A DNA stretch of 33,735 nucleotides from Candidatus Vecturithrix granuli (GCA_000739535.1 DF820479.1:108452-142186); one strand, 5' to 3'; counted from the stretch's first letter, positions 5,701 to 17,500 are shown. Notes: generated from the sequence alone by a model not told the origin. A program made the numbers and translations.

Positions 5701-7318
5701 ATTTACTGCGGCGTTGAACCTGGCGTTGACGCCGGATTTAGACTATCAGGCGGAACTCACGATGGACGGTGCGGCCATTGAACAGATTCTCGCAATAGTT
5801 GCCGAGCTTGAAGGGATCCGCGGCACGATTACGGGGAAAATCACCTCCGCCGGAAGCCTGAAGAACTCGAGTGCGCTTTCAGCTTCGATCAAGCTCAGTG
5901 AATTAGATCTCAACGTTTTCGGCCAAAAGCTCAGAAATACGACTCCGGTTGATTTAACGGTCACGCAGCAAGAATTAACGGTGAACTCCCTGGAACTTAA
6001 AGGTGAAGAATTAGGGTTATTTGCCAAAGGTTTTCTGGATTTTCAGGGAAAATATGATCTTGATTTGGATGGAATTCTCGATTTGCGTCCTATTATCGCC
6101 TTTTTACCCAAAGATATCGGCATTACCTCGCTTTCAGGGCGGGTGCAGCTCATTTGTAATGTGCGGGGAACATTCGAAAATCCCGCGATAGAAGGGATCG
6201 CGGAAATCCACCAGGGACGAGTGGAACTCGCCGCGTATCCGGATCCGGTCACGGATATTCAGGGAAAATTAGCATTTACGAAAGAAGCAATTGAGATTGT
6301 TGGTGTGACAGGCAAAGTCAGCCGGGGAACATTTACAACGTATGGCAAGATCACGTATTCAGGTTTCACGCCCGAAGAATTGATGATTGAAGTCGAAGGG
6401 AAAGAACTTATTGTCCAAAATCTTTTCCCTGAATTAAAAGTGACCGTATCGCCGCATGTGAGAATAACCGGCGATCTCACCCGGCAAAAACTGATTGGCG
6501 AAGTACTGGTTCACGACGTATTGTACACTCAGGACCTCGATTTTCAGGCAATGCTGTTTGAAAAAAGCCGCAGTATTGTTCTTGCTCCCGCTGACGGAGA
6601 AACTGAAAGTGGACAATTGACGTTAGACCTCTCTATTAAAGCTCCTCAAAACATCAAAGTTAAAAATAAACTGGCGGATTTAGATTTGCGGGCGAATCTG
6701 CGTATTCAGGGCACTACTGCGAAACCACAACTTGAAGGTCGAGTGGAGGTTTTAGAGGGCAAAGTCATTTTTGGCGATGTGAAATATACGATCCTCTCTG
6801 GCGTTTTCGATTTTCTCGATCCGCTTAAAATTAATCCAGAGATCAATCTTCAGGCCGAAACTGTGGTGCAGCAATATGACATCAAATTAGGGGTTCAGGG
6901 GAATTTGGAAAAATTCTCCCTGAACATGACCGCGGATCCGCCGCTCACTGACGCTGAAATTGCGCGGTTGCTCACTTCTGGTTCCGGCGGCTCCAATGGC
7001 TATAACATTGTGACAAAACCGCTGCAAACGCTCGTGGAAGGCCGCATTGAAAAGGCGGTCAGACTGGATCGACTAACAGTGAACGTTGATCCCTTGCTCT
7101 CAAGATCCGGAACTTCAGAGACAACCCCCACAGTGACAATGGCAAAACAGTTGTTTCGAGACCTGATGCTCACGTTTACCACTACCGTCGGCGGATCTGA
7201 AAAAACCCAGATTGTCGAAGTAGAATATGAACTCTCTGACAATATGTCAATTACAGCCAGACGCGATGAAAAAGGGGAATTTGAAACAAATTTTACCTTT
7301 AAATTCAAGCTAAAATAA
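2762..7318 (+). CDS. tamB: TamB-like translocation/assembly module protein (AsmA-like, DUF490)
   Basis: A 1518-residue envelope protein of the AsmA/TamB superfamily, long beta-groove proteins that bridge inner and outer membrane, help assemble outer-membrane proteins (with the BamA-like TamA) or carry phospholipids. The N-terminus is a single signal-anchor (about residues 9-28, LLFTVLALVVLLIAATLVY) followed by an AsmA-like start. The body is many degenerate repeats of the type 'L.GTV.G.G.L.L..P......L.L..', as expected for the elongated beta structure. The last roughly 350 residues match the TamB C-terminal domain, including IKVKNKLADLDLRANLRIQG, EGRVEVLEGKVIFGDVKY and the terminal beta strands ending FTFKFKLK. 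No tamA/bamA homologue is next to it. The stop overlaps recO by one base (TAATG), so the two genes are co-translated. Its presence implies a two-membrane envelope. Confidence 0.88.
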   Translation: MLNVFKKFLLFTVLALVVLLIAATLVYRSFFAQKVDLYLTQKIQSVLAQQLQREVSIGSVHLSFPNPKIVISDIAIAREQQLSEGLLLAAKSLQARVLLRSLISKYLLIDNIILDSPLIWVEFDEQGHSNLPSFKGEEKEEEPESRFRPERLVNRLSFPHIQLIDAQIYFAHRQIPLTVSVERLNTTVSFALEGLRVQGSIALEGGEIEYQDREKITTAFSGNLDFYENTLSLSSFRLKAGSSELTLDGTIANLSQPDLNLAVLADLSLDEIDRFAQIDQNLSGRAAFQGAVTGVISDIRANGHLRCEQGTAWKLAFNDLNADLRYQERQIDIANLAVALWDGRVTGNTTLSFAGPPQYMAKATLNGVNIHYVNTLLTEELDLAGVLSGDVDVRSDSWGFEDLVLQSTVELNELEAYGVSVPHLNAQVDIQRKTLSIKDLDAKIFQGTVRGGGTLELFSDFLYQAKLDLEKVELTPIMALIPEPPDVAGQVSGTVAAQGSHFDLPHLALNADLALTNLDAYDIQSPSLSTKARIQNQMLSIESLSAQLFGGNISGSGTLVLAGSTTPVFETKLALQEISAQKVMQQFAVQKTDSGVDLRGSISGKVQGSGNSFQLNDLRAEAALKGTGDILIATNPQNTAIPFRLDLQSTLKEGTLTLTTLMVDSAALQLTTSGALKLIEPEFDLTYQIASENVETLLKQVMLFIPGLDDTSPLAKFRGKIEELKGTLYGPLNNLTIQAKAQLKKADLVWIKADTLSTEVNYQGTMLTISHLQAAYNTTEISASGTIDLANPSDPQFHLPVALQAGKVADYLAMVKQDLPISGQLQRIETIVNGSASDLKVALALQVTKGAAWEQSFDALTGDVQLAENRISLSSVKLKKNGGTITANGFFDFDMSFQAQLSGSNLDLHDIDALKTMAIQYEGKVDLTAQVEGTLQDPHGSAGVVLKDLSYNQNPIENVTCDISMQNQRLHAQLTTFRQKFTAALNLALTPDLDYQAELTMDGAAIEQILAIVAELEGIRGTITGKITSAGSLKNSSALSASIKLSELDLNVFGQKLRNTTPVDLTVTQQELTVNSLELKGEELGLFAKGFLDFQGKYDLDLDGILDLRPIIAFLPKDIGITSLSGRVQLICNVRGTFENPAIEGIAEIHQGRVELAAYPDPVTDIQGKLAFTKEAIEIVGVTGKVSRGTFTTYGKITYSGFTPEELMIEVEGKELIVQNLFPELKVTVSPHVRITGDLTRQKLIGEVLVHDVLYTQDLDFQAMLFEKSRSIVLAPADGETESGQLTLDLSIKAPQNIKVKNKLADLDLRANLRIQGTTAKPQLEGRVEVLEGKVIFGDVKYTILSGVFDFLDPLKINPEINLQAETVVQQYDIKLGVQGNLEKFSLNMTADPPLTDAEIARLLTSGSGGSNGYNIVTKPLQTLVEGRIEKAVRLDRLTVNVDPLLSRSGTSETTPTVTMAKQLFRDLMLTFTTTVGGSEKTQIVEVEYELSDNMSITARRDEKGEFETNFTFKFKLK

Positions 7319-8157
7319 TGGCGTTCAGAAAAACAGAAGCGGTTGTGATTAAGGCGATCAATTTACGCGAAGCTGATAAAATTATCACCTTCTTTTCACG
7401 TGAATATGGGAAAATTCAAGGAGTTGCCAGAGGTGTGCGCAAAATTCGGACAAAGTACAGCGGGAAATTAGAACTTTTTAACCGAGTGGAGGTGATTTTC
7501 TTTCAAAAGACCGAGCCGATGCAAAGCGGAGGGTTTCCTGAAAAACATCCGTTACTGGGGATCACACAAGTCGATCTGGTGGAAGCGCTGCCGCAATTTC
7601 AGACCGATTTTCACCGCATGATCGGCGCGTCATACATTGCGGAATTGCTGAACCGGCTGTTTGAAGACTATGACGATTCCCATAAAGCGGTCTATATCCT
7701 GGTCTGCCATACATTAAAAGCCTTAGCGACCCTCGACCGGATTCAGAATATTCTGCCGGCCTTTGAATTGAAACTTCTAGCTCATTTAGGGTATGCGCCG
7801 GTATTTGATGAGTGTACCGTCTGCCAACGCCCTCGCACACAGACCCTCGCCGAATCGAACTCAATACAGCAGTTGTTGGGATTCAATTTTGCAACTGGCG
7901 GTGTGCTGTGCCCTCGCTGCAAAGCGATCAAAAAAGGGACCTTCGATGTCAGCCCCTCTGTGCTCAATGCGATGCAGCAACTGCTCGAGACCGCAATGTT
8001 GTATATTGAACATGTTCCTCTGACGCCGCAAATTCATCAGGAAATTAAACCCCTGCTTACCGGGTATCTGCAATATCATCTGGGTATTGCCTTAAAAACC
8101 GATACCTTTGTACAAAAACTGCGCTCCACGCATTTTTCAACAAGCGGCATGGTCTGA
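7318..8157 (+). CDS. recO: DNA repair protein RecO
   Basis: A 279-residue RecO, which works with RecF and RecR to displace SSB and load RecA at gaps. The N-terminal OB fold is clear (TEAVVIKAINLREADKIITF, then GKIQGVARGVRK), followed by the helical domain. The C-terminal zinc knuckle is complete: C166xxC169 (ECTVCQR) and C198xxC201 (LCPRCK). Length is slightly above the usual 240-260. The start codon overlaps the tamB stop by one base, so expression is probably coupled to tamB. Nothing odd is visible. Confidence 0.92.
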   Translation: MAFRKTEAVVIKAINLREADKIITFFSREYGKIQGVARGVRKIRTKYSGKLELFNRVEVIFFQKTEPMQSGGFPEKHPLLGITQVDLVEALPQFQTDFHRMIGASYIAELLNRLFEDYDDSHKAVYILVCHTLKALATLDRIQNILPAFELKLLAHLGYAPVFDECTVCQRPRTQTLAESNSIQQLLGFNFATGGVLCPRCKAIKKGTFDVSPSVLNAMQQLLETAMLYIEHVPLTPQIHQEIKPLLTGYLQYHLGIALKTDTFVQKLRSTHFSTSGMV

Positions 8158-8293: not shown

Positions 8294-10075
8294 ATGATGC
8301 CAAAGCTTCCGTATGCCATTGCCAATTTTTTAACGATCCGTGAGGAAAATTATCTCTATGTTGACCGGACGGCCTATATTCGTCAGATCGAAGAACTGAG
8401 CGGGAGAAATTTGCTGTTTGTCCGGCCGCGTCGCTTCGGGAAATCCTTGTGGCTCAATGTGTTGAACCGTTATTACGATGTGGCTTTAGCTGACCGGTTT
8501 GATGAACTCTTCGGGGATTTGGAGATTGGACGAAATCCCACGCCGCTGCACAATCGTTATTTCGTGATGACCTGGAATTTTTCTCGCATTGATCCGCGCG
8601 GCACGGTGGATGACATCGCCAACCGAATAAACGAAACACTCAATAGCGTCATTAAAACGTTTTCAAACTATTACCAGAAATACCTGTCCGACAGGGTTAC
8701 CATTCAACCTCAGGCAATTAATTCATTAGAACATATCCTGATCGCTGTTGCGAAAACTCCGTACAAACTCTATCTGTTGATTGATGAATACGACAATTTT
8801 GCCAATGAAGTCATGGCAAGCGATGAAAGAACATATAAGGGACTGGTGCAGAAAGAAGGTCCGCTCAAAACTTTGTATAAAGGGTTGAAAGAGTTCACAG
8901 AAACCAGCGTGCTCGACCGGCTGTTTATCACAGGCGTGTCACCGGTCGTGATGAGCGATATTACCAGCGGAGCCAATATCTTCACGAATATCTATCTGGA
9001 CGCCGGATTCAATGCCTTATGCGGGTTCACAGAACAGGAAGTGCGCAGGATGGCAGAGGCTGCGGTTCAGACCTGTAAATTGGAGCCATCAGCAACGGAT
9101 GACGTGGTGCAGATGATGGCAACCTGGTACAATGGGTTTCTGTTTTCGGAAAGGGGGATGGAGCGGCTGTATAATCCCACTCTCGTTTTCTATTTTCTTA
9201 ATTATTTTATCCGCACCTGTCAATATCCCCGCCAAATGCTGGATAGTAACCTCGCCGCTGATGAAGGCAAACTCGAATATCTCGGCCAGATTGTGACAGG
9301 CAGGCAGGCGGTCATTGATGCCTTACAGACCGATGAACCGTTAGTGATTGACGCCCTGTCCGAACGGTTTACGCTATCTGCGATGCTAGCAAGGTTATCC
9401 CAGGATACGACGTTTTTGGCGTCATATCTTTATTATTTTGGCATGCTCACCATTGCCGGTACCGACGCCCAGCGACGGGTGCATCTGGTCCCGCCCAATC
9501 TGGTAATGAAAAAGCTGTATGCGGAGCAAATCCTCAAATTTCTATTGCCTCTGGGAACAGAAAGAAATGAAGCTGCGGCTGCGGTTGACAAATTGATCGT
9601 TGAACAACAATTACCGCCATTACTGGCGTTTGTAGAACAGAAACTTTTCCCGATTTTCAGTAACCGCGATTACCGCTGGATGAATGAATTTACCGTGAAA
9701 ATGGCGTTTACCACGCTCTTATTTAATGATATAAACTATGCTATCTTCTCGGAACCGGAATTCTCGCGCGGTTATGCGGATTTGTGTCTGCTCCTCAGAC
9801 CCGACGCCCGGCCCTACAAGCTGTTTGACCTGCTCTTTGAGTTCAAATATGTCGCCCCGGACGTCCTGAGCATGAGCGGCGAACAGGTCAGAAACATGGC
9901 AGAACACGAATTATTGCAAAAAACGCCGGTCAAAAACGCTTTCAAAGAGGCGAGAACACAGCTCATGCGTTATATTCGGGTTTTACAGGATCGCCTGGGT
10001 GGCCAACTGAAACTGAAAACCTATCTTGTCGTTTCTATCGGCTTTGACCGGCTGTTTGGGGAAGAAGTCAGATAA
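8294..10075 (+). CDS. AAA-ATPase-like / PD-(D/E)XK nuclease protein (PF09820-PF08011 type)
   Basis: A 593-residue protein of a widespread, poorly characterised family that joins a P-loop NTPase to a restriction-like nuclease. It opens with the family signature (YVDRTAYIRQIEE), then Walker A RPRRFGKS at about 44-51, Walker B LLIDEYD at 161-167, and a sensor-like ITGVSP segment near residue 215. The C-terminal part carries the nuclease core, D496 in YADLCLLL and E516-F-K518 in FEFKYV. AGGAGG lies upstream; spacing suits the second ATG (8297) slightly better than the first. Family members occur in many copies in anaerobes and candidate phyla. Defence or mobile-element roles are suspected but not proven. 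It heads the local cluster of DNA-processing genes. Confidence 0.88.
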   Translation: MMPKLPYAIANFLTIREENYLYVDRTAYIRQIEELSGRNLLFVRPRRFGKSLWLNVLNRYYDVALADRFDELFGDLEIGRNPTPLHNRYFVMTWNFSRIDPRGTVDDIANRINETLNSVIKTFSNYYQKYLSDRVTIQPQAINSLEHILIAVAKTPYKLYLLIDEYDNFANEVMASDERTYKGLVQKEGPLKTLYKGLKEFTETSVLDRLFITGVSPVVMSDITSGANIFTNIYLDAGFNALCGFTEQEVRRMAEAAVQTCKLEPSATDDVVQMMATWYNGFLFSERGMERLYNPTLVFYFLNYFIRTCQYPRQMLDSNLAADEGKLEYLGQIVTGRQAVIDALQTDEPLVIDALSERFTLSAMLARLSQDTTFLASYLYYFGMLTIAGTDAQRRVHLVPPNLVMKKLYAEQILKFLLPLGTERNEAAAAVDKLIVEQQLPPLLAFVEQKLFPIFSNRDYRWMNEFTVKMAFTTLLFNDINYAIFSEPEFSRGYADLCLLLRPDARPYKLFDLLFEFKYVAPDVLSMSGEQVRNMAEHELLQKTPVKNAFKEARTQLMRYIRVLQDRLGGQLKLKTYLVVSIGFDRLFGEEVR

Positions 10076-10516: not shown

Positions 10517-13225
10517 TTACGTCGCTGTATATAAGTCTTTTGTGGTCACGGCGATCGTATATTTGACGTCCAGAGGCTGAAACAGGGCAAAGTGCTTTGC
10601 GCCGCATTCGATTTTGAGGCGTTCAACCTCTCGAAGTAATTGGCGGTTCAGGCTGCCTTTGGTTTCAGCCACAAAATACACGCGCCGGTCGTGTTCGAAA
10701 ATTACCGCCCAATCCGGGGTGTAGTTCCCGAGGGGCGTCGGAATCTTGAAGCCGCGCGGCAGTTTAAAGAAAAATTTGATGCGCTCATCAGCTTCGCAAT
10801 CACGGGCAAAATCGCTTTCAATCGCGCTCTCCACCGCAATGTAATTGAAGAGCGTTTTTTCCGTTTTTGAGACGGCAAACAGACTGCTGAGATAGGTTTC
10901 AATTTCTTCATAGCGAAACAGCGTCATTTCATAGACCTGCCCGTTGATCTGCTCATATTTCAGCCCTTCGACCATCAGACTGTACAGTGTGCGTTGAATC
11001 GCGCTGACCACGTTATCCAAAAACAACTGCGGGTTGATTTCCAATTCTTCATAACGCTCCGACTGTTTCAAAATTTCGAAAATCGTGCTGCGGGTAATAT
11101 CCACCTTGCTTTGAATATAGGCATAAATATCAGGAATCTGATAGCGGACGGCCTGACTCTGTTTGACGCTCAAATCGGTCAACGCGCCCTCAATCCCTGC
11201 TTCAGTGTAGTTCAAGCGGGCGGTGCGCGATTCTAACATCGGGCGCGTGGTCAGCGGAACTTTGTTGAAATCGCGCAGTTCAGCCACGGTGCGGGTGATC
11301 AGTTCCGCGGTGCTGAATTGCACGTGGTAGCGGGTGCGGTGTTTGATGCGATCCCAGATTTCGAAAAACAACGGGCAATTTTCAGGCGTCAGTTCTTTGC
11401 TGAGGCGAATTTTGGCCCTTGCGCGGGCATTTTTGATTCGGCCGCCAAAATCAACACTGGTCTCTTCCTGAATTTCGCGCTGCAAGGCGGCGGAAAAATC
11501 CTGATAGGTTTCATTGGCAATCACAGTGAGCAGGTTGAGACGTTTATCCTGAACCCGCACGCCGCTCTGGTCAACCGACAGACGCAGCCCGCGTCCGATT
11601 TCCTGGCGTTTTTTCAATTCGCTCTGACTTTCGTTCAGAGTGCAGATTTGAAACACATTCGGATTATCCCAGCCTTCCCGCAATGCGCTGTGGGAAAAGA
11701 TGAATTGCAGCGGCTCGTCAAGGCTCAGCAAGCGTTCTTTGTCTCTCATAATCAGGCTATAGGTCTCGTCGTCCGCTTTGGTGCTGCCGGTCGTATCTTT
11801 GAACGCCCCTTTTTTATCCTGCGAAAAATAGCCGTTGTGTACTTGCTCAACGGGAAAGGGCAGGAGATCGCGGTATTCCGGCAGATTGGCGCAGCGCTTG
11901 AAAGCCTCTTCGAACCAGAGCGCAAATTTGCCCTTTTGCGCATGACCGTCGGCGGTATAAAGGCGGTAATGAGCGACTTTATCGAGAAAGAACAGGGACA
12001 AGACTTTGACGCCCGAGGGCTTGAATTTCTTGACTTTCTCAAAGTGCCACTTAACGGTGCGTTCAATCTGGTATTTCATGACCTCATCGGTCAAACCGCC
12101 CCGGGTTTGCCCGGTTCGCAACACCATTCCATTGGCAAACTCGATCATCTCTTCGGCCGCGTTGATGCTATTCAGGATAAAGCCATCTTTATAGATTTCG
12201 CGTCCGCCAGACAGCCGAAACAAATCCGCGCCAGCGTCAACTGTGACGGTTTTGGGTTTGACGCTCTGTTTGTCATTGACATAGATTTCCAATCTGGCTT
12301 TTAAGGTCGTTTTTCCGCGCTGCACGCCTTTGAAACGGATAAAGGCGGCGTTGTAATTGCCATCGGCCGTAATCCCGTCAACCTCGATCTGCTTGACCAG
12401 TCCCAAATCATACGCTTGCACTGGATTCAGACTATACACCAGGTTATATAAGTTGCGATGCGTGGCGGAATAGCGCAGCGTGCAGAGCGGGTTCAGATGA
12501 TGGATCGCGGCCTTGCGAATATCGGTTTCCATGTTCTGCGGTTCATCCACAATCACGATCGGGTGCGTGGCTTGCAGGTATTCAATCGGCTTGACGCCGG
12601 TTTCCCGCACAGTGTTGATAATGTTGGCGTCTCGGGTGAAACTGTCAATATTGATGACCAGCACTTGAATGGCGTTCGACGTTGCAAAGTTGCGCAAAGC
12701 CGCTAATTTCCGGCTGTCGTACATCAGAAAATTGATCGCCGGGCAGCCGTAAAGGGCTTGAAAATGGTCATGGGTAATTTCCAGATTTTTGACCGCGCCT
12801 TCGCGGATCGCCACACTGGGCGCGACGATCACGAATTTTTTGAAGCCATAGACCTTGTGCAGTTTGTAAATTGTACGCAGATAGACGTAGGTTTTGCCGG
12901 TGCCGGTTTCCATTTCAATCGTAAAATTGAGCGGAATTGATTGTTTTTCCCCGGTTTCCGCGTCGGCATAATCGCATGGCTCTAACTGCTGCGAGAGATG
13001 AAGATGATTGTGCTCCTGCACAGCGCGGACGTTGCGCAGCAATTGGCTTTCCGTGAGGCTCAGCCGGTTGGCAACCCCTTTTTCCGACAGGGACAGGCTC
13101 GCGCCCTCCATCCCGAAAGAGATTTCAAAATCCCCTCCGTGCAAGGGCTGCCCTTCGAAAATGTCCACAATCGCCTGAATCGCCGCAAGCTGGTAGTCCT
13201 GAGAACCGTCAAATTGCAGTTTCAT
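10517..13225 (-). CDS. res: Type III restriction enzyme, Res subunit (helicase-nuclease)
   Basis: A 902-residue Res protein: with the Mod subunit it forms the type III complex that translocates or slides on DNA using ATP and cuts when two unmethylated sites meet. Superfamily 2 motifs are clear: motif I METGTGKT at about 105-112, motif II DEPQ at 227-230, motif III SATH at 253-256, and motif VI QEIGRGLRL in the middle third. The C-terminal PD-(D/E)XK nuclease is present, P837-D838 and E854-T-K856. The frame is open to 13306, but the start is placed at ATG 13225, four bases after the stop of the upstream gene, because the homologous part begins MKLQFDGSQ. No ribosome-binding site is visible, so translation is probably coupled. 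Res is separated from mod by two genes, which is unusual. Confidence 0.92.
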   Translation of the reverse strand: MKLQFDGSQDYQLAAIQAIVDIFEGQPLHGGDFEISFGMEGASLSLSEKGVANRLSLTESQLLRNVRAVQEHNHLHLSQQLEPCDYADAETGEKQSIPLNFTIEMETGTGKTYVYLRTIYKLHKVYGFKKFVIVAPSVAIREGAVKNLEITHDHFQALYGCPAINFLMYDSRKLAALRNFATSNAIQVLVINIDSFTRDANIINTVRETGVKPIEYLQATHPIVIVDEPQNMETDIRKAAIHHLNPLCTLRYSATHRNLYNLVYSLNPVQAYDLGLVKQIEVDGITADGNYNAAFIRFKGVQRGKTTLKARLEIYVNDKQSVKPKTVTVDAGADLFRLSGGREIYKDGFILNSINAAEEMIEFANGMVLRTGQTRGGLTDEVMKYQIERTVKWHFEKVKKFKPSGVKVLSLFFLDKVAHYRLYTADGHAQKGKFALWFEEAFKRCANLPEYRDLLPFPVEQVHNGYFSQDKKGAFKDTTGSTKADDETYSLIMRDKERLLSLDEPLQFIFSHSALREGWDNPNVFQICTLNESQSELKKRQEIGRGLRLSVDQSGVRVQDKRLNLLTVIANETYQDFSAALQREIQEETSVDFGGRIKNARARAKIRLSKELTPENCPLFFEIWDRIKHRTRYHVQFSTAELITRTVAELRDFNKVPLTTRPMLESRTARLNYTEAGIEGALTDLSVKQSQAVRYQIPDIYAYIQSKVDITRSTIFEILKQSERYEELEINPQLFLDNVVSAIQRTLYSLMVEGLKYEQINGQVYEMTLFRYEEIETYLSSLFAVSKTEKTLFNYIAVESAIESDFARDCEADERIKFFFKLPRGFKIPTPLGNYTPDWAVIFEHDRRVYFVAETKGSLNRQLLREVERLKIECGAKHFALFQPLDVKYTIAVTTKDLYTAT

Positions 13226-13229
13226 GTTT

Positions 13230-13895
13230 TTAGTGTAAATAGTTGAGCTTGCGGTATGCCTGCCGGACGGCTTCTTTGAACTTTTGATACGCCGCAAGCT
13301 GTTCAAGTTTTTCCAACTGGATTTTTTGACCCAGGGGTTGATATAATTCTGCGATATTTAATTGATGTCGCCTTCTGGCAGGGATATCCGCTCGTCCAAG
13401 ACGAATTGCTTCTTCAATCGCCTCTTTGGGTCTGGCGTAACTTTCCGGTTTTTTGGCAATTCCTAGCTCATGCGCACTTTTGGATGTGCCAATTTCACGC
13501 CTCAGCAAATCTATGTCGGCAAGCATCCAGGCTTCAGTCATTTGGACTGGCACAATCGCCGCCAAATTTTTACAGACCTCTGCTCGCATTTGTTGAACGG
13601 CTTCAAACGCGGGGATAATTTTATACGTCAATGCGTTGCTATCATTTGCCTCATCCGCATCGGCATGAACGCACAAGACCATAATACCGTGTTCAAACGA
13701 AGTTTTGGCATATTCCAGCACCAGGTCAACAAAATCTTTTCCCGTGATTTTTTTTAACGACTGAACCGGTAAAACTTCGATAGAACTCTCACATTCAAAC
13801 GCCACTTCTTCAAAAGTCCGTTGAATGATGCTTTCTAAGAAACGAACATCGGTTGTCCCTTCTGTGGCAAATCCAATCATAATTTGTGGAATCAT
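13230..13895 (-). CDS. TOPRIM-type DUF4276-like protein, partner of the adjacent AAA ATPase
   Basis: A 221-residue soluble protein resembling the DUF4276 group of small TOPRIM proteins. Visible TOPRIM features are the acidic N-terminal motif with E12 (FATEGTTDVRFL) and the HADADE motif with D79 and D81. In OLD nucleases and their relatives these residues bind metal for phosphodiester chemistry. Its ATG overlaps the ATPase stop (ATGA), and res begins four bases after its own stop, so the three are one translational unit. By analogy with RloA/RloB and with PARIS (AriA ATPase, AriB TOPRIM effector), it is a candidate nuclease effector released or activated by the ATPase. The family name is moderately sure; the effector role is inference. 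Confidence 0.65.
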   Translation of the reverse strand: MIPQIMIGFATEGTTDVRFLESIIQRTFEEVAFECESSIEVLPVQSLKKITGKDFVDLVLEYAKTSFEHGIMVLCVHADADEANDSNALTYKIIPAFEAVQQMRAEVCKNLAAIVPVQMTEAWMLADIDLLRREIGTSKSAHELGIAKKPESYARPKEAIEEAIRLGRADIPARRRHQLNIAELYQPLGQKIQLEKLEQLAAYQKFKEAVRQAYRKLNYLH

Positions 13896-15343
13896 CGCAG
13901 TTCCTCAATGGCTTTCTCGGCATCGGCGGTTTGCAGGTATTGAATGACTTCGGCAAGGGTCAATTTCCGTTCCTGTTCAGTAAACTGTAACACCAGTTGC
14001 GAGGCGTGTTCTTTGATAACCGGTAAGATTTTACTCACTCGCAATTTGATTTTTTTCCGTGTTCCCGGGCAAACTCGTTGATCGTTTTTCGCCTTGTTTT
14101 CGATCAAATCTTCGACCTGAGTGATGAGCGTCGAGATTTGCGAGAACCAGAGGCTTACGTTCGGGTCCGTTTTCCAGAGACTGATCTGTTTCACCAAAAC
14201 CGGCGAATGCGTATTCACAATCACTTGACGCAAAGGCATTGATGGATTTGTAAAATCTACTGAAAGGTCTTTGAGCAGATGCGCCATTGTTTCGATGCGG
14301 AAAGGATGAATGCCATTTTCAGGCTCTTCGAAGCACAGCAGACCGATGTGCTGCGGATCATACTGAAAAATACAGAGCGCCAGCAGACGCAACGTGCCTT
14401 CAGAAAGCACCCGGGAGGAAAACTCGCGCCCATCTTCCCCGCGTAATTTGATAATAAATTGTTTGTTCGCTTGATCATCATACACCAGAACATCCGTAAA
14501 ATTAGGGAGAAACTGGTTCAGTGTGCGTGAGATTGCTGTGAGAGCATATTCGTCATCTAATTTGAGGCGGTATAACGCCGCTGCCAAATTTTTCCCGCTT
14601 TGGGTAATGGTATCATGCATCCCGATGTCCTGACGAGTTGGCTCGCGCAAATCCGCAGGGTTCAACTGCAAAAACTTCCACCTCCGCATTTCTTCCTTTG
14701 CTGCGAAGGCATGAGGAAAATCTATGGAGTTGATTCCTCCAAGAACGGTTTGACTGATAGCGTTTGCAGGAGTCGCTTTTCCTCCCTGTCTGCCATCTTG
14801 CCGGATTTTAATTGTCGGAATCTCATTTTGCGTGTCCGTATAAATAAAAGGTTTCGGAGATCCCCCGCCAGTTGGCGCGTGCCATAGTGTACGCAAACTT
14901 TTCGGGATGATATTTTGACACCAGGCATCATCAGTATTTCTAATTTTCGCCAAATATTCGTATGCGATAAATAAATCATCGAAACCTTTCTCATTCCGGC
15001 GACGTTGGATGATTAACTCATACCGCAAACGGGGATATTTGAGTTCGGCTTCGCCGCCCCAATTATCTTTGACTGTCCGATTAACCAGCATGTCAACCAC
15101 AAATGACATTTCATCTGCATACCATTCTTCGCCGTATTGCGTAAACAGTTCGTTTGCGCTCCCACGCTGTTCGTTAAATGCGGTTTTTAAATCCGTCTCA
15201 GCCAGGCGCGCCAGGAGTTGCAAAGCATCGAACACGTTGCTTTTTCCGGAGGCGTTCGCTCCAGCGATCACAGTTAGTGGAGTGAATACCATTTCAAAGT
15301 TGTGAAAGGATTTGAATCCATTGATTTTCAGATAGGTAATCAT
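13892..15343 (-). CDS. OLD/RloA-like AAA ATPase (AAA_21 type, SMC/ABC-like)
   Basis: A 483-residue ABC/SMC-like ATPase. The N-terminus MITYLKINGFKSFHNF leads into Walker A GANASGKS at 28-35; the signature LSEGT is at 313-317, Walker B LLCFEEP at 335-341, and the H-loop NTHSP at about 377-381. The open frame extends to 15373, but those extra residues fall in a hairpin repeat and the family starts at the ATG at 15343. The last part of the protein is helical and acidic, unlike an OLD TOPRIM domain; the TOPRIM function is instead on the next gene, which overlaps by four bases. This split architecture is that of RloA-type and AriA-type defence ATPases. It follows mod by 69 bases and has no visible ribosome-binding site. 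Confidence 0.85.
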   Translation of the reverse strand: MITYLKINGFKSFHNFEMVFTPLTVIAGANASGKSNVFDALQLLARLAETDLKTAFNEQRGSANELFTQYGEEWYADEMSFVVDMLVNRTVKDNWGGEAELKYPRLRYELIIQRRRNEKGFDDLFIAYEYLAKIRNTDDAWCQNIIPKSLRTLWHAPTGGGSPKPFIYTDTQNEIPTIKIRQDGRQGGKATPANAISQTVLGGINSIDFPHAFAAKEEMRRWKFLQLNPADLREPTRQDIGMHDTITQSGKNLAAALYRLKLDDEYALTAISRTLNQFLPNFTDVLVYDDQANKQFIIKLRGEDGREFSSRVLSEGTLRLLALCIFQYDPQHIGLLCFEEPENGIHPFRIETMAHLLKDLSVDFTNPSMPLRQVIVNTHSPVLVKQISLWKTDPNVSLWFSQISTLITQVEDLIENKAKNDQRVCPGTRKKIKLRVSKILPVIKEHASQLVLQFTEQERKLTLAEVIQYLQTADAEKAIEELR

Positions 15344-15351
15344 GTCTAAAA

Positions 15352-15411
15352 CCACAGCTTTCTCAGATTCCACAGATGAAAAATAATCTGCGAAATCTGA
15401 GAAAGCTGTGG
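15352..15411. repeat. 60-base hairpin repeat between mod and the AAA ATPase
   Basis: Arms 15352-15377 and 15386-15411 are complementary at 24 of 26 positions around an 8-base loop. The hairpin begins two bases after the mod stop codon and ends eight bases before the ATPase ATG, so it fills the whole gap. In the mRNA it would be a strong stem placed where a ribosome-binding site is expected. It may stop part of the transcripts, stabilise the mod message, or block the ATPase start. No T-run follows, so a simple terminator is less likely. Confidence 0.8.
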
Positions 15412-15412
15412 C

Positions 15413-17299
15413 TTAAATAATTTTCAATTCCACGCCGGCTTCGTGGAGTTGGAGTTTGGCGCTGCTCATGGTTTCGTCCGGGTTGTCGCCGGTAAAGAGG
15501 CTGCTGAGGGTCACGAAGCGCATGGGTTTGGCGGCGGCGACGTGCTGAAACAGGGGCAGATTGATACGCTCTAAGGCGATCCACATCGCGCCGTCAGCAA
15601 TATCGTAAATTTTGCAGCCTTCAAACAGCCGTTCCTGCACGTCAACCGAAAGCGGAAATCCGGCTTTCAGGCACAGTTCCGTCAACAAAGCTGCGTCGCT
15701 GCCGCGATATTCAGAGAGCGGTTCGCGCAACAGGGCCATCTGGGCTAAGAGCGCGTCTTTGCCTTCCACATCTCTGCGCCAGATTTTGAAGTTGCTGTAA
15801 TCGAGGGTATAGGCTTTGAAGCCCAAATCCGGCTTCTGGCCGCCGAAATCTAATTCGGTTTGCTGTTCTGCCGCTAATTTGGCGATGACTTTTTTGATGC
15901 GCGCGGTGCAAATATCGGCAATGGTTTTGTAGCCGGCTTTATAGGCTTCGCTGTTTTCGTCTAAGGCTTCAGGCAGTTGCACGAGGATAAAACGACGATT
16001 GCCGCCGTCTTCCTGGTTGAGTTCTAACACGGCTTGTGCAGTGCTACCGCTGCCCGCGAAGAAGTCAAGGATAATCCCAGAATGATCCTCCGTATCATTG
16101 ATCTGAATTTTGAACAGTTCTTTCAGGAGTTTAGCCGGTTTAGGGAAACCGAATAGACTGCTTAATTCAAGTTGTGATAACTCTTTCGTGCCATCTTGCG
16201 TATAAATCTTATCAATCACTGAAATAGGGGTACTCTTTTTATAATTGTCATATTCATCTTTCTCATATTGTTTATACCTGACACTAAAACGACCATTATG
16301 TTCTGTTATGACGATTTCATTATTTGCAAGGGCTTTCTCTACGCGATCTTTTGACCAAAGCCATTGTTTTTTCGGCCATAGCTCTTGCCCGTTCCATAGA
16401 ATGGGAAATTTTAAATTAGGTCTGTCATCCATACTCGTTGTCTCAAGCGGCCAGGTACCATAATATCCTCTTTCAGCAAATTTTTCATCTTTTTTACTGT
16501 ACATCTTTTTAGCTTTATTGGTCATCGGAATAGAAATGCTTCTAATGGCATCGAAATTTTTGGCATACACAAGGATATATTCATGACAAGTGATATAATC
16601 GCGTGGTTTTGCTCCAGCTCCAAATTTACTTTTCCATACGATTTGTTCTACAAAATTTTCCTCTCCAAAAATTTCATCCATCAATAACTTGAGAGTCGCA
16701 GATTCGTTGTCGTCAATCGAGACGAACATCACGCCGTCTTCGCGCAGCAAGTTGCGGGCTAAATACAGGCGCGGATACATCATGCTGAGCCATACGCTGT
16801 GGAACTGGCCGTTTTCTCTGCTGTTTTTCTTCCACAGGTCGTGTTTGTTCAACAGGCCATGTTCGTCGATAATGCCTGCCCGTCGTTCGTAGTCGGCGCG
16901 GTGTTCGGCGTAGTCATCGGGATACACAAAGCTGTCGCTGCCAGTGTTGTAGGGCGGATCAATGTAGATCATTTTGATCTTGTCGAAATAGGATTTTTGC
17001 AGCACGCACAGCACTTCCAAATTTTCCCCGGCGATGAAGATATTGTCAGATGACTCGAAGTTGACGCTGCGTTCCGGATCCGGCGTGAGCGTGGCGGTGG
17101 TCTGTTTCTGGATTTCGCGGCGGGCTTCCATTTTCCCGGCCCAACTCAACTCATAATGTTCATTGCTCACGAACACTTCTTCGCCAAAGGTCTGACGCAG
17201 GCGTTCCCAATCAATTTTGTCTTCCGAAAACACGTCCGGGAACAATTGTTTCAAATCTTTCAGCTTTTCTATCGTGATATTCAAGCTTTTTCCGTCCAT
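15413..17299 (-). CDS. mod: Type III DNA methyltransferase, Mod subunit (beta-class N6-adenine)
   Basis: A 628-residue Mod subunit that recognises the target and methylates adenine at N6 using S-adenosylmethionine; Res needs it for DNA recognition. The catalytic motif IV DPPYNTG is at 114-120 and the AdoMet-binding motif I FAGSG at 414-418. The order IV before I defines the beta class. The segment of about 150-400 between them contains the target-recognition domain, which sets specificity and cannot be predicted here. ATG 17299 has a strong AGGAGGAT seven bases upstream. No simple-sequence tract suggesting phase variation was seen. It is the first gene of a mod-ATPase-TOPRIM-res operon. Confidence 0.93.
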   Translation of the reverse strand: MDGKSLNITIEKLKDLKQLFPDVFSEDKIDWERLRQTFGEEVFVSNEHYELSWAGKMEARREIQKQTTATLTPDPERSVNFESSDNIFIAGENLEVLCVLQKSYFDKIKMIYIDPPYNTGSDSFVYPDDYAEHRADYERRAGIIDEHGLLNKHDLWKKNSRENGQFHSVWLSMMYPRLYLARNLLREDGVMFVSIDDNESATLKLLMDEIFGEENFVEQIVWKSKFGAGAKPRDYITCHEYILVYAKNFDAIRSISIPMTNKAKKMYSKKDEKFAERGYYGTWPLETTSMDDRPNLKFPILWNGQELWPKKQWLWSKDRVEKALANNEIVITEHNGRFSVRYKQYEKDEYDNYKKSTPISVIDKIYTQDGTKELSQLELSSLFGFPKPAKLLKELFKIQINDTEDHSGIILDFFAGSGSTAQAVLELNQEDGGNRRFILVQLPEALDENSEAYKAGYKTIADICTARIKKVIAKLAAEQQTELDFGGQKPDLGFKAYTLDYSNFKIWRRDVEGKDALLAQMALLREPLSEYRGSDAALLTELCLKAGFPLSVDVQERLFEGCKIYDIADGAMWIALERINLPLFQHVAAAKPMRFVTLSSLFTGDNPDETMSSAKLQLHEAGVELKII

Positions 17300-17408: not shown

Positions 17409-17500
17409 TGAACTACAAGGACAAGAGATAAGAAAAGGATTTTTTTGGGGCAGCGACCATGAAACTCCCTCCTTTTCTTATCTTTTGTCCTTGTAGTTCA
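17409..17500. repeat. 92-base inverted repeat with 31-bp arms
   Basis: Arms 17409-17439 and 17470-17500 match at 30 of 31 positions (outer end TGAACTACAAGGACAA) around a 30-base centre. It lies in the 586-base spacer 17300-17885 between the divergent mod operon and the secreted protein gene. No protein is encoded inside. It is compatible with a small MITE or a cruciform-forming repeat. Apart from this element and two candidate promoters, I see nothing in the spacer. Confidence 0.8.

Follow-up and report, generated by a model that had tools for sequence, protein, structure and literature searches.

An ATPase-Toprim gene pair between mod and res of a type III restriction operon is probably a self-contained defence module in a general cargo slot

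Four genes of Candidatus Vecturithrix granuli, mod, an ATPase gene, a Toprim gene and res, lie in that order on the minus strand of a 33,735-nucleotide stretch of DNA (GCA_000739535.1 DF820479.1:108452-142186; 'the window'), and the arrangement raises the question of whether the two inner genes work as part of the type III restriction system that encloses them or as a defence module of their own. The first-pass annotation had described the four genes as one strand-consistent operon, the last three members of which are nearly gapless, and both descriptions held. Coordinates and family profiles agreed (Table 1), the overlap of the ATPase and Toprim genes was exactly 4 bases (13892-13895), and exactly 4 bases (13226-13229) separated the Toprim stop codon from the res ATG. 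The insert that separates res from the upstream mod on the same strand amounted to 2.1 kb. The listed ATPase start, GTG at 15373, was rejected because it falls within a 29-bp inverted repeat, and the start was placed at ATG 15343, since homologues begin there with the conserved N-terminus 'MITYLKINGFKSF'; with this correction the distance from mod to the ATPase gene was 69 bases. The layout is more than chance, because the mod-ATPase-Toprim-res order recurs in other phyla.

Table 1. Positions of the four operon genes, the two inverted repeats and one neighbouring gene in the window.
Feature	Position	Strand	Description
AAA-ATPase_like gene	8294-10075		weak PDDEXK_9 match; adjoins recO, convergent with the restriction operon
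res	10517-13225	-	type III restriction subunit, 902 aa
Toprim gene	13230-13895	-	HEC-01B type (DUF4276-like) predicted nuclease, 221 aa
ATPase gene	13892-15343	-	HEC-01A type, 483 aa
Inverted repeat, mod stop to ATPase start	15349-15414	-	29-bp arms 15349-15377/15386-15414, 90% complementary
mod	15413-17299	-	type III beta-class N6/N4 DNA methyltransferase, 628 aa
Second inverted repeat, upstream of mod	17409-17500		31-nt arms, 97% complementary, 30-nt spacer

The outer genes have the make-up of a type III system, that is, a beta-class methyltransferase (Mod) and an SF2 helicase with a C-terminal endonuclease (Res), encoded in one operon with mod first, and the motifs of both proteins were intact. 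Mod carries DPPY ahead of FxGxG, with a TRD in mid-protein, and matched PADLOC MTase_III (PDLC03634, E 1.5e-175) and Pfam N6_N4_Mtase (115.6 bits; cut-off 26.7). Res carries the helicase motifs GTGKT and DEPQ and a PD...ExK endonuclease motif at its C terminus, and matched PADLOC REase_III (PDLC03647, E 1.6e-285) and the Pfam domains RE_endonuc (112 bits) and ResIII (54 bits). Together, Mod and Res would constitute a type III restriction enzyme of the ordinary sort. The genome (8.4 Mb in 21 contigs, from a phylum represented by four species in the genome set) was searched for a further type III res and none was found, only weak helicase matches. Ordinary genes neighbour the operon, among them those for a citrate transporter, TamB, RecO, a solute-binding protein and EamA, and with the exception of the AAA-ATPase_like/PDDEXK_9 gene (Table 1) the surroundings are not a defence island.

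The inner genes encode a HEC-01A ATPase and an adjoining HEC-01B (DUF4276) protein, the composition that defines HEC-01, a candidate defence system in PADLOC. The ATPase matched PADLOC HEC-01A (PDLC04184, E 1.4e-131, 437.7 bits) over residues 1-476 of 483 and profile positions 1-463 of 464, with AAA_21/AAA_15 as its Pfam domains. Its Walker A (GANASGKS), signature (LSEGTLR), Walker B (CFEEPENG) and H-loop (NTHS) motifs were kept in homologues (alignment of 51 sequences), and the AlphaFold model (pLDDT 88.5) is that of a predicted SMC/Rad50/PtuA-type head. The Toprim protein matched the full PADLOC HEC-01B profile (PDLC04212, E 5.7e-65, 217.4 bits), while DUF4276, its sole plausible Pfam match, scored 26.7 bits, under the gathering score of 30.2. 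Residues E12, D16, E121 and K157 were invariant and D79 and D81 at least 90% conserved among 53-54 sequences; the invariant Glu (E12) and the DxD (D79xD81) expected of Toprim nucleases are thus present. The set matched, in the same order and at roughly the same spacing, E400, E404, D455xD457, E508 and K562 of the Burkholderia pseudomallei OLD protein, residues that coordinate two metals or take part in catalysis (PMC6755086). The longest structural alignments of the AlphaFold model (pLDDT 97.3) were with OLD Toprim regions (6njv, 171 residues, Z 7.7; 6nk8, 169 residues, Z 7.7) and with chain 8ux9_A of the PARIS complex (175 residues, Z 7.2). Shorter Rossmann-like matches scored higher Z than these 167-175-residue OLD and PARIS alignments (Z 7.2-7.7), Foldseek with the model gave no match at E<0.001, and a sequence search of the family against solved structures gave none. 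Since the Foldseek search was not significant and the Rossmann-like matches scored higher, the Toprim assignment rests on motif and partial fold evidence.

The distribution of the pair was studied by using the ATPase as a query against 84,980 species genomes, which gave 340 relatives, and the best 80 of these were analysed; the share found 'mostly alone' is valid for this ATPase subfamily. Many relatives lie on MAG contigs with short flanks, so that some contexts were cut off. In about 75 of the 80 a Toprim gene directly followed the ATPase gene, usually at a distance of 15 bases or less or with an overlap of 4-8 bases, which makes the two genes one unit. By contrast, mod and/or res adjoined the pair in only seven of these 80 loci, belonging to six genomes (L018, L022, L041, L056, L063/L064 and L073), and two of these loci, L056 and L073, have only fragments of restriction genes beside the pair. 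A mod remnant was present upstream of the pair at L078, and other restriction contexts were hsdM-hsdS-pair (L006), an Eco57I-type methylase fragment (L055) and a type ISP enzyme downstream (L035). Most of the remaining pairs among the 80 were flanked by housekeeping genes. Four lay between genes for aspartokinase/homoserine dehydrogenase and a homoserine kinase-like protein (L024, L028, L032, L033) and another four had rsgA on one side and a D-Tyr-tRNA deacylase-like gene on the other (L025, L027, L029, L031), the kinase and deacylase names being our own reading of the sequence. Both of these placements were stable across several Bacteroidota genera.

About 90% of the 80 relatives were alone or beside unrelated genes, the outcome that the first-pass annotation had named as refuting, and the earlier interpretation was borne out only in part: the four-gene order did recur in other phyla, but the pair is not a dedicated type III partner. 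Among the hosts, 37 of the 47 genomes searched that carry a stand-alone pair had no detectable type III res of the window's family. At E<=1e-30, such a res was found in 10 of 43 stand-alone hosts (23%), as against 69 of 395 genomes (17%) in an even Bacteroidota sample counted by hand, which is no clear enrichment. The pair itself was rare, with three strong matches in the 395 Bacteroidota genomes, one of them the sampling centre itself, and patchily distributed over at least seven phyla. No relatives were detected on viral contigs scanned with the Toprim and ATPase proteins or on plasmids scanned with the Toprim protein; a single 'phage' match proved to be a contig of bacterial appearance that carries the pair on its own.

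When 81 ATPases were placed on a tree, the copies embedded in type III operons proved polyphyletic, with at least six state changes. A tree forcing them into one clade was rejected (p-AU 1.5e-34; 1.7e-33 without the window), and descent of the embedded pair as a single four-gene lineage was ruled out by the tree and the AU test together. On this tree the nearest relative of the window ATPase, among the best 80 of 340, was a stand-alone copy from Anaerolinea (L004). Given separate places on the tree and the same order in other phyla, the insertion of the pair between mod and res is recurrent. Under random placement the chance of finding the pair in a mod-res junction is about 1 in 20,000 (our arithmetic, from about 0.17 mod-res junctions per genome and about 4,000 gene junctions), so that six genomes in 80 loci represent a strong excess. 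That the pair came into one kind of slot repeatedly and independently may reflect some selective benefit of lying there, which the reading as a purely independent module does not in itself account for.

The junction was then considered from the side of the restriction genes, in a survey of 94 regions located by way of res matches, the majority of which came from genomes drawn evenly. Where both genes could be seen, and with the seeds left out, 33 of 43 Bacteroidota operons (77%; 10 direct) and 13 of 30 Pseudomonadota operons (43%; 17 direct) carried one or more genes as an insert, and the premise that a type III mod normally stands directly before res therefore fails for the res family of the window. 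About 40 of the 46 inserts were of defence- or toxin-like families, classed per cluster representative by Pfam/PADLOC. They comprised HTH/RhuM-like genes, mostly with Fic/Doc or SoFic (PDC-M59 type), in 14 operons; the DUF1016/YhcG nuclease (PDC-S02) in 10; Schlafen AlbA_2 in five more; Fic in three more; HEC-01-type genes at L084, L114 and L092, the last classed by its DUF4276 gene alone; an NsnB/AriA-like ATPase with a second gene at L090; and GmrSD (HEC-06), PDC-M19, PDC-S13 and AbiD with a PD-Lambda-4-like protein. In this L090 cargo (6287-8156), the 215-aa partner of the ATPase was without a Pfam or PADLOC match. None of 312 flanking ORFs from these regions belonged to a recurring cargo cluster; the comparison is partly circular because the clusters were built from slot genes. 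The cargo label changed at least 27 times on the res tree, also among close relatives. With many unrelated modules in the slot, location says little on a specific link between the pair and restriction. No description of a mod-res cargo slot was found in the searchable literature.

A further arrangement was observed on the other side of mod. At L098 (7716-11677), genes for an HKD+Snf2-type helicase and a DUF4391 protein lie just upstream of mod (PADLOC C3a139, 446 bits), and in many type III operons a SNF2/HKD helicase of ~1,070-1,100 aa and a protein of ~230-260 aa directly precede it. Like gene pairs, judged by length and position only, stand before mod at L094, L099, L110, L146, L154, L155, L157-L161 and L163; helicase, small protein, mod and res look like a recurring four-gene unit.

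Close relatives with different cargo allowed the edges of the inserts to be located. L085 (Schlafen plus PHP/AAA) was paired with L090 (ATPase and second gene), L088 (GmrSD) with L137 (ATPase-Toprim), L158 (no insert) with L161 (Schlafen), and L084 with L138, which carry different HEC-01 subtypes. In pairwise DNA comparison of L085 and L090, homology extended to the last base of mod and resumed at the first base of res (+0/+0). For L088/L137 and L084/L138 the breaks fell no more than 1 base from the mod stop and res start, and for L158/L161 no more than 2. They were 8-81 bases from the gene ends in L098/L100 and L086/L087, while homology resumed 65 bases inside res of one member in L148/L150 and, as far as detectable, ~220 bases inside res in L155/L156. 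The target recognition region in the middle of mod was also swapped. In these alignments whole cassettes seem to have been replaced between the conserved ends of mod and res, perhaps by homologous recombination through those ends. In the slots of L107 and L109, pieces of the mod and res ends are repeated beside the cargo (at L109, for example, 6443-6551 is similar to the start of res); they could be footprints of successive insertions.

Two inverted repeats mark the window operon. Folded as RNA, the one between mod and the ATPase gene reached -47.6 kcal/mol (z -11.4), a strong predicted hairpin in the operon transcript. No second copy was found in the genome with 3 or fewer mismatches, which ruled it out as a genome-wide repeat; a 16-base piece of it had four copies in the genome with 1 mismatch. 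A hairpin placed behind mod could let mod be expressed before, or apart from, the more dangerous genes. The repeat upstream of mod (-48.7 kcal/mol, z -8.6) is perhaps the remnant of a small mobile element or a feature of the operon boundary.

The interpretation that we favour is that the pair is probably a self-contained defence module of the HEC-01 kind, carried as a cassette in a general cargo slot at the type III mod-res junction. It is favoured because the pair is contiguous in nearly all of the 80 relatives while mod or res neighbours it at so few; because type III res in the stand-alone hosts is close to background, and most of these hosts are without it; because the embedded copies are polyphyletic, the cargo is variable and the exchange boundaries are near-exact; and because the conserved Toprim catalytic residues match those of OLD and TgvAB provides a precedent. 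An SMC/Rad50-like ATPase dimer would hold the Toprim protein and license it once infection is sensed. The Toprim protein might then cut nucleic acid by two-metal catalysis, either DNA, as does OLD, or RNA, as does AriB, which cuts tRNA (PMC12409363). Restriction and the ATPase-Toprim module would be two independent layers on one transcript, and of possible couplings between them the evidence supports just one, this common transcript that begins with mod.

It could be instead that the pair is a guard, in the manner of PARIS or PrrC, which detects either a type III enzyme under inhibition or the DNA-mimic protein that inhibits it, and then kills or arrests the cell via the Toprim protein. PrrC, encoded within a type IC locus, fires on inhibition of EcoPrrI (PMC12707154), and the pair has a PARIS-type ATPase-Toprim architecture, with the partial match of the Toprim model to 8ux9_A, as well as a history of repeated entry into mod-res junctions. 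A type III-specific guard is nevertheless hard to reconcile, family-wide, with copies that mostly reside in genomes without a type III res of the window's family, and unrelated effectors also occupy the slot. Moreover, PARIS does not guard EcoKI (PMC9122126), and models of AriB (DUF4435) do not match the Toprim protein. On balance we regard a guard function as unlikely. A related proposal, which we hold to be quite unlikely, is that the junction is a dedicated exchange site with homology arms in the 3' end of mod and the 5' end of res, the cargo of which is selected for coupling to restriction failure. If this were true, the slot cargo as a whole would be a class of guards and the ATPase-Toprim pair one of them.

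The stable placements among housekeeping genes, and the cell-cycle role reported for an archaeal OLD-class ATPase (PMC12796447), would suit a passenger that serves some other purpose, such as DNA repair, and came to lie in a recombination-prone junction. Such a role outside defence is distinctly improbable given the rarity and patchiness of the pair, and the remaining slot cargo is mainly defence- or toxin-like. That the pair is an accessory Mod-Res subunit modulating restriction, for instance by controlling Res toxicity or DNA translocation, is highly improbable: the tight translational arrangement that would speak for it, a 4-base overlap and a 4-base gap, has its like in other operons, where a -4 ATGA-type overlap from cargo to res is very frequent, the pair also exists without mod-res, and Mod-Res does not need the pair, because its close relatives have other cargo or none (L158/L161, L085/L090, L098/L100).

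Occupied this often, and with its cargo replaced at or near gene boundaries, the slot is a ready source of candidate antiviral genes and explains the 'interrupted' look of type III operons. Close relatives among the operons, alike except in cargo, also make a question of long standing testable, whether embedded modules act as backup, guard or passenger.

Comparison with known systems places the pair nearest in make-up to HEC-01. It matches HEC-01A and HEC-01B at full length, combines an ATPase with a DUF4276 protein and is embedded in another defence system; it differs in that this system is a type III restriction operon, whereas HEC-01 belongs by name in Hma systems. The designation reportedly derives from 'Hma-embedded candidate' in a 2024 preprint by Payne et al. 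(10.1101/2024.01.29.577857, cited in PMC12988326; PADLOC-DB 2.0). The HEC and PDC family names come from 'guilt-by-embedding' (PMC12988326), and since the slot cargo consists largely of these families, its authors may have used type III operons as well.

The earlier suggestion of kinship with ATPase-Toprim defence systems stood as regards kind; membership of PARIS itself was rejected. PARIS likewise combines an AAA_15/21-type ATPase with a Toprim protein, and 8ux9 is partly matched by the window Toprim model. The window ATPase, however, scored 115 bits to AriA profiles against 437 to HEC-01A, so that AriA is not its best family, and an AriB (DUF4435) profile was absent from the 11 PADLOC matches, leaving the ATPase without an AriB partner. 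The best NCBIfam match of the window ATPase was MAD3 (AAA-family ATPase of a methylation-associated system, MADS) at 144.6 bits, and MAD4, at 14.7 bits, was the sole one of the Toprim protein; the curated cut-offs are 420 and 160, respectively, and the pair was not assigned to MADS. Class 2 OLD nucleases share the SMC-like ATPase, a Toprim domain (putative in the window protein) and the E/E(D)/DxD/E/K active-site set, but are one fused protein, while the window encodes two separate ones, which resemble OLD in sequence only at the Walker A region.

In position, the counterparts are two-gene modules lodged between the genes of type I systems. TgvAB, inside a type I restriction operon, protects alone (PMC11411939), and DarTG2 lies between hsdS and hsdR at a site described as a potential recombination hotspot (PMC12255303). 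Their junction is hsdS/hsdR and that of the window mod/res; their effectors (GmrSD-like, DarT) are unlike an ATPase-Toprim pair, though GmrSD and Fic also occur in the type III slot. The embedding of defence modules in Hma and type I restriction loci was already known, and the present survey adds a common type III family, in which 77% of Bacteroidota operons and 43% of Pseudomonadota operons had an occupied mod-res junction. Among type III operons the mod-res slot corresponds to the embedding sites of type I and Hma systems, and the window operon is one example of it.
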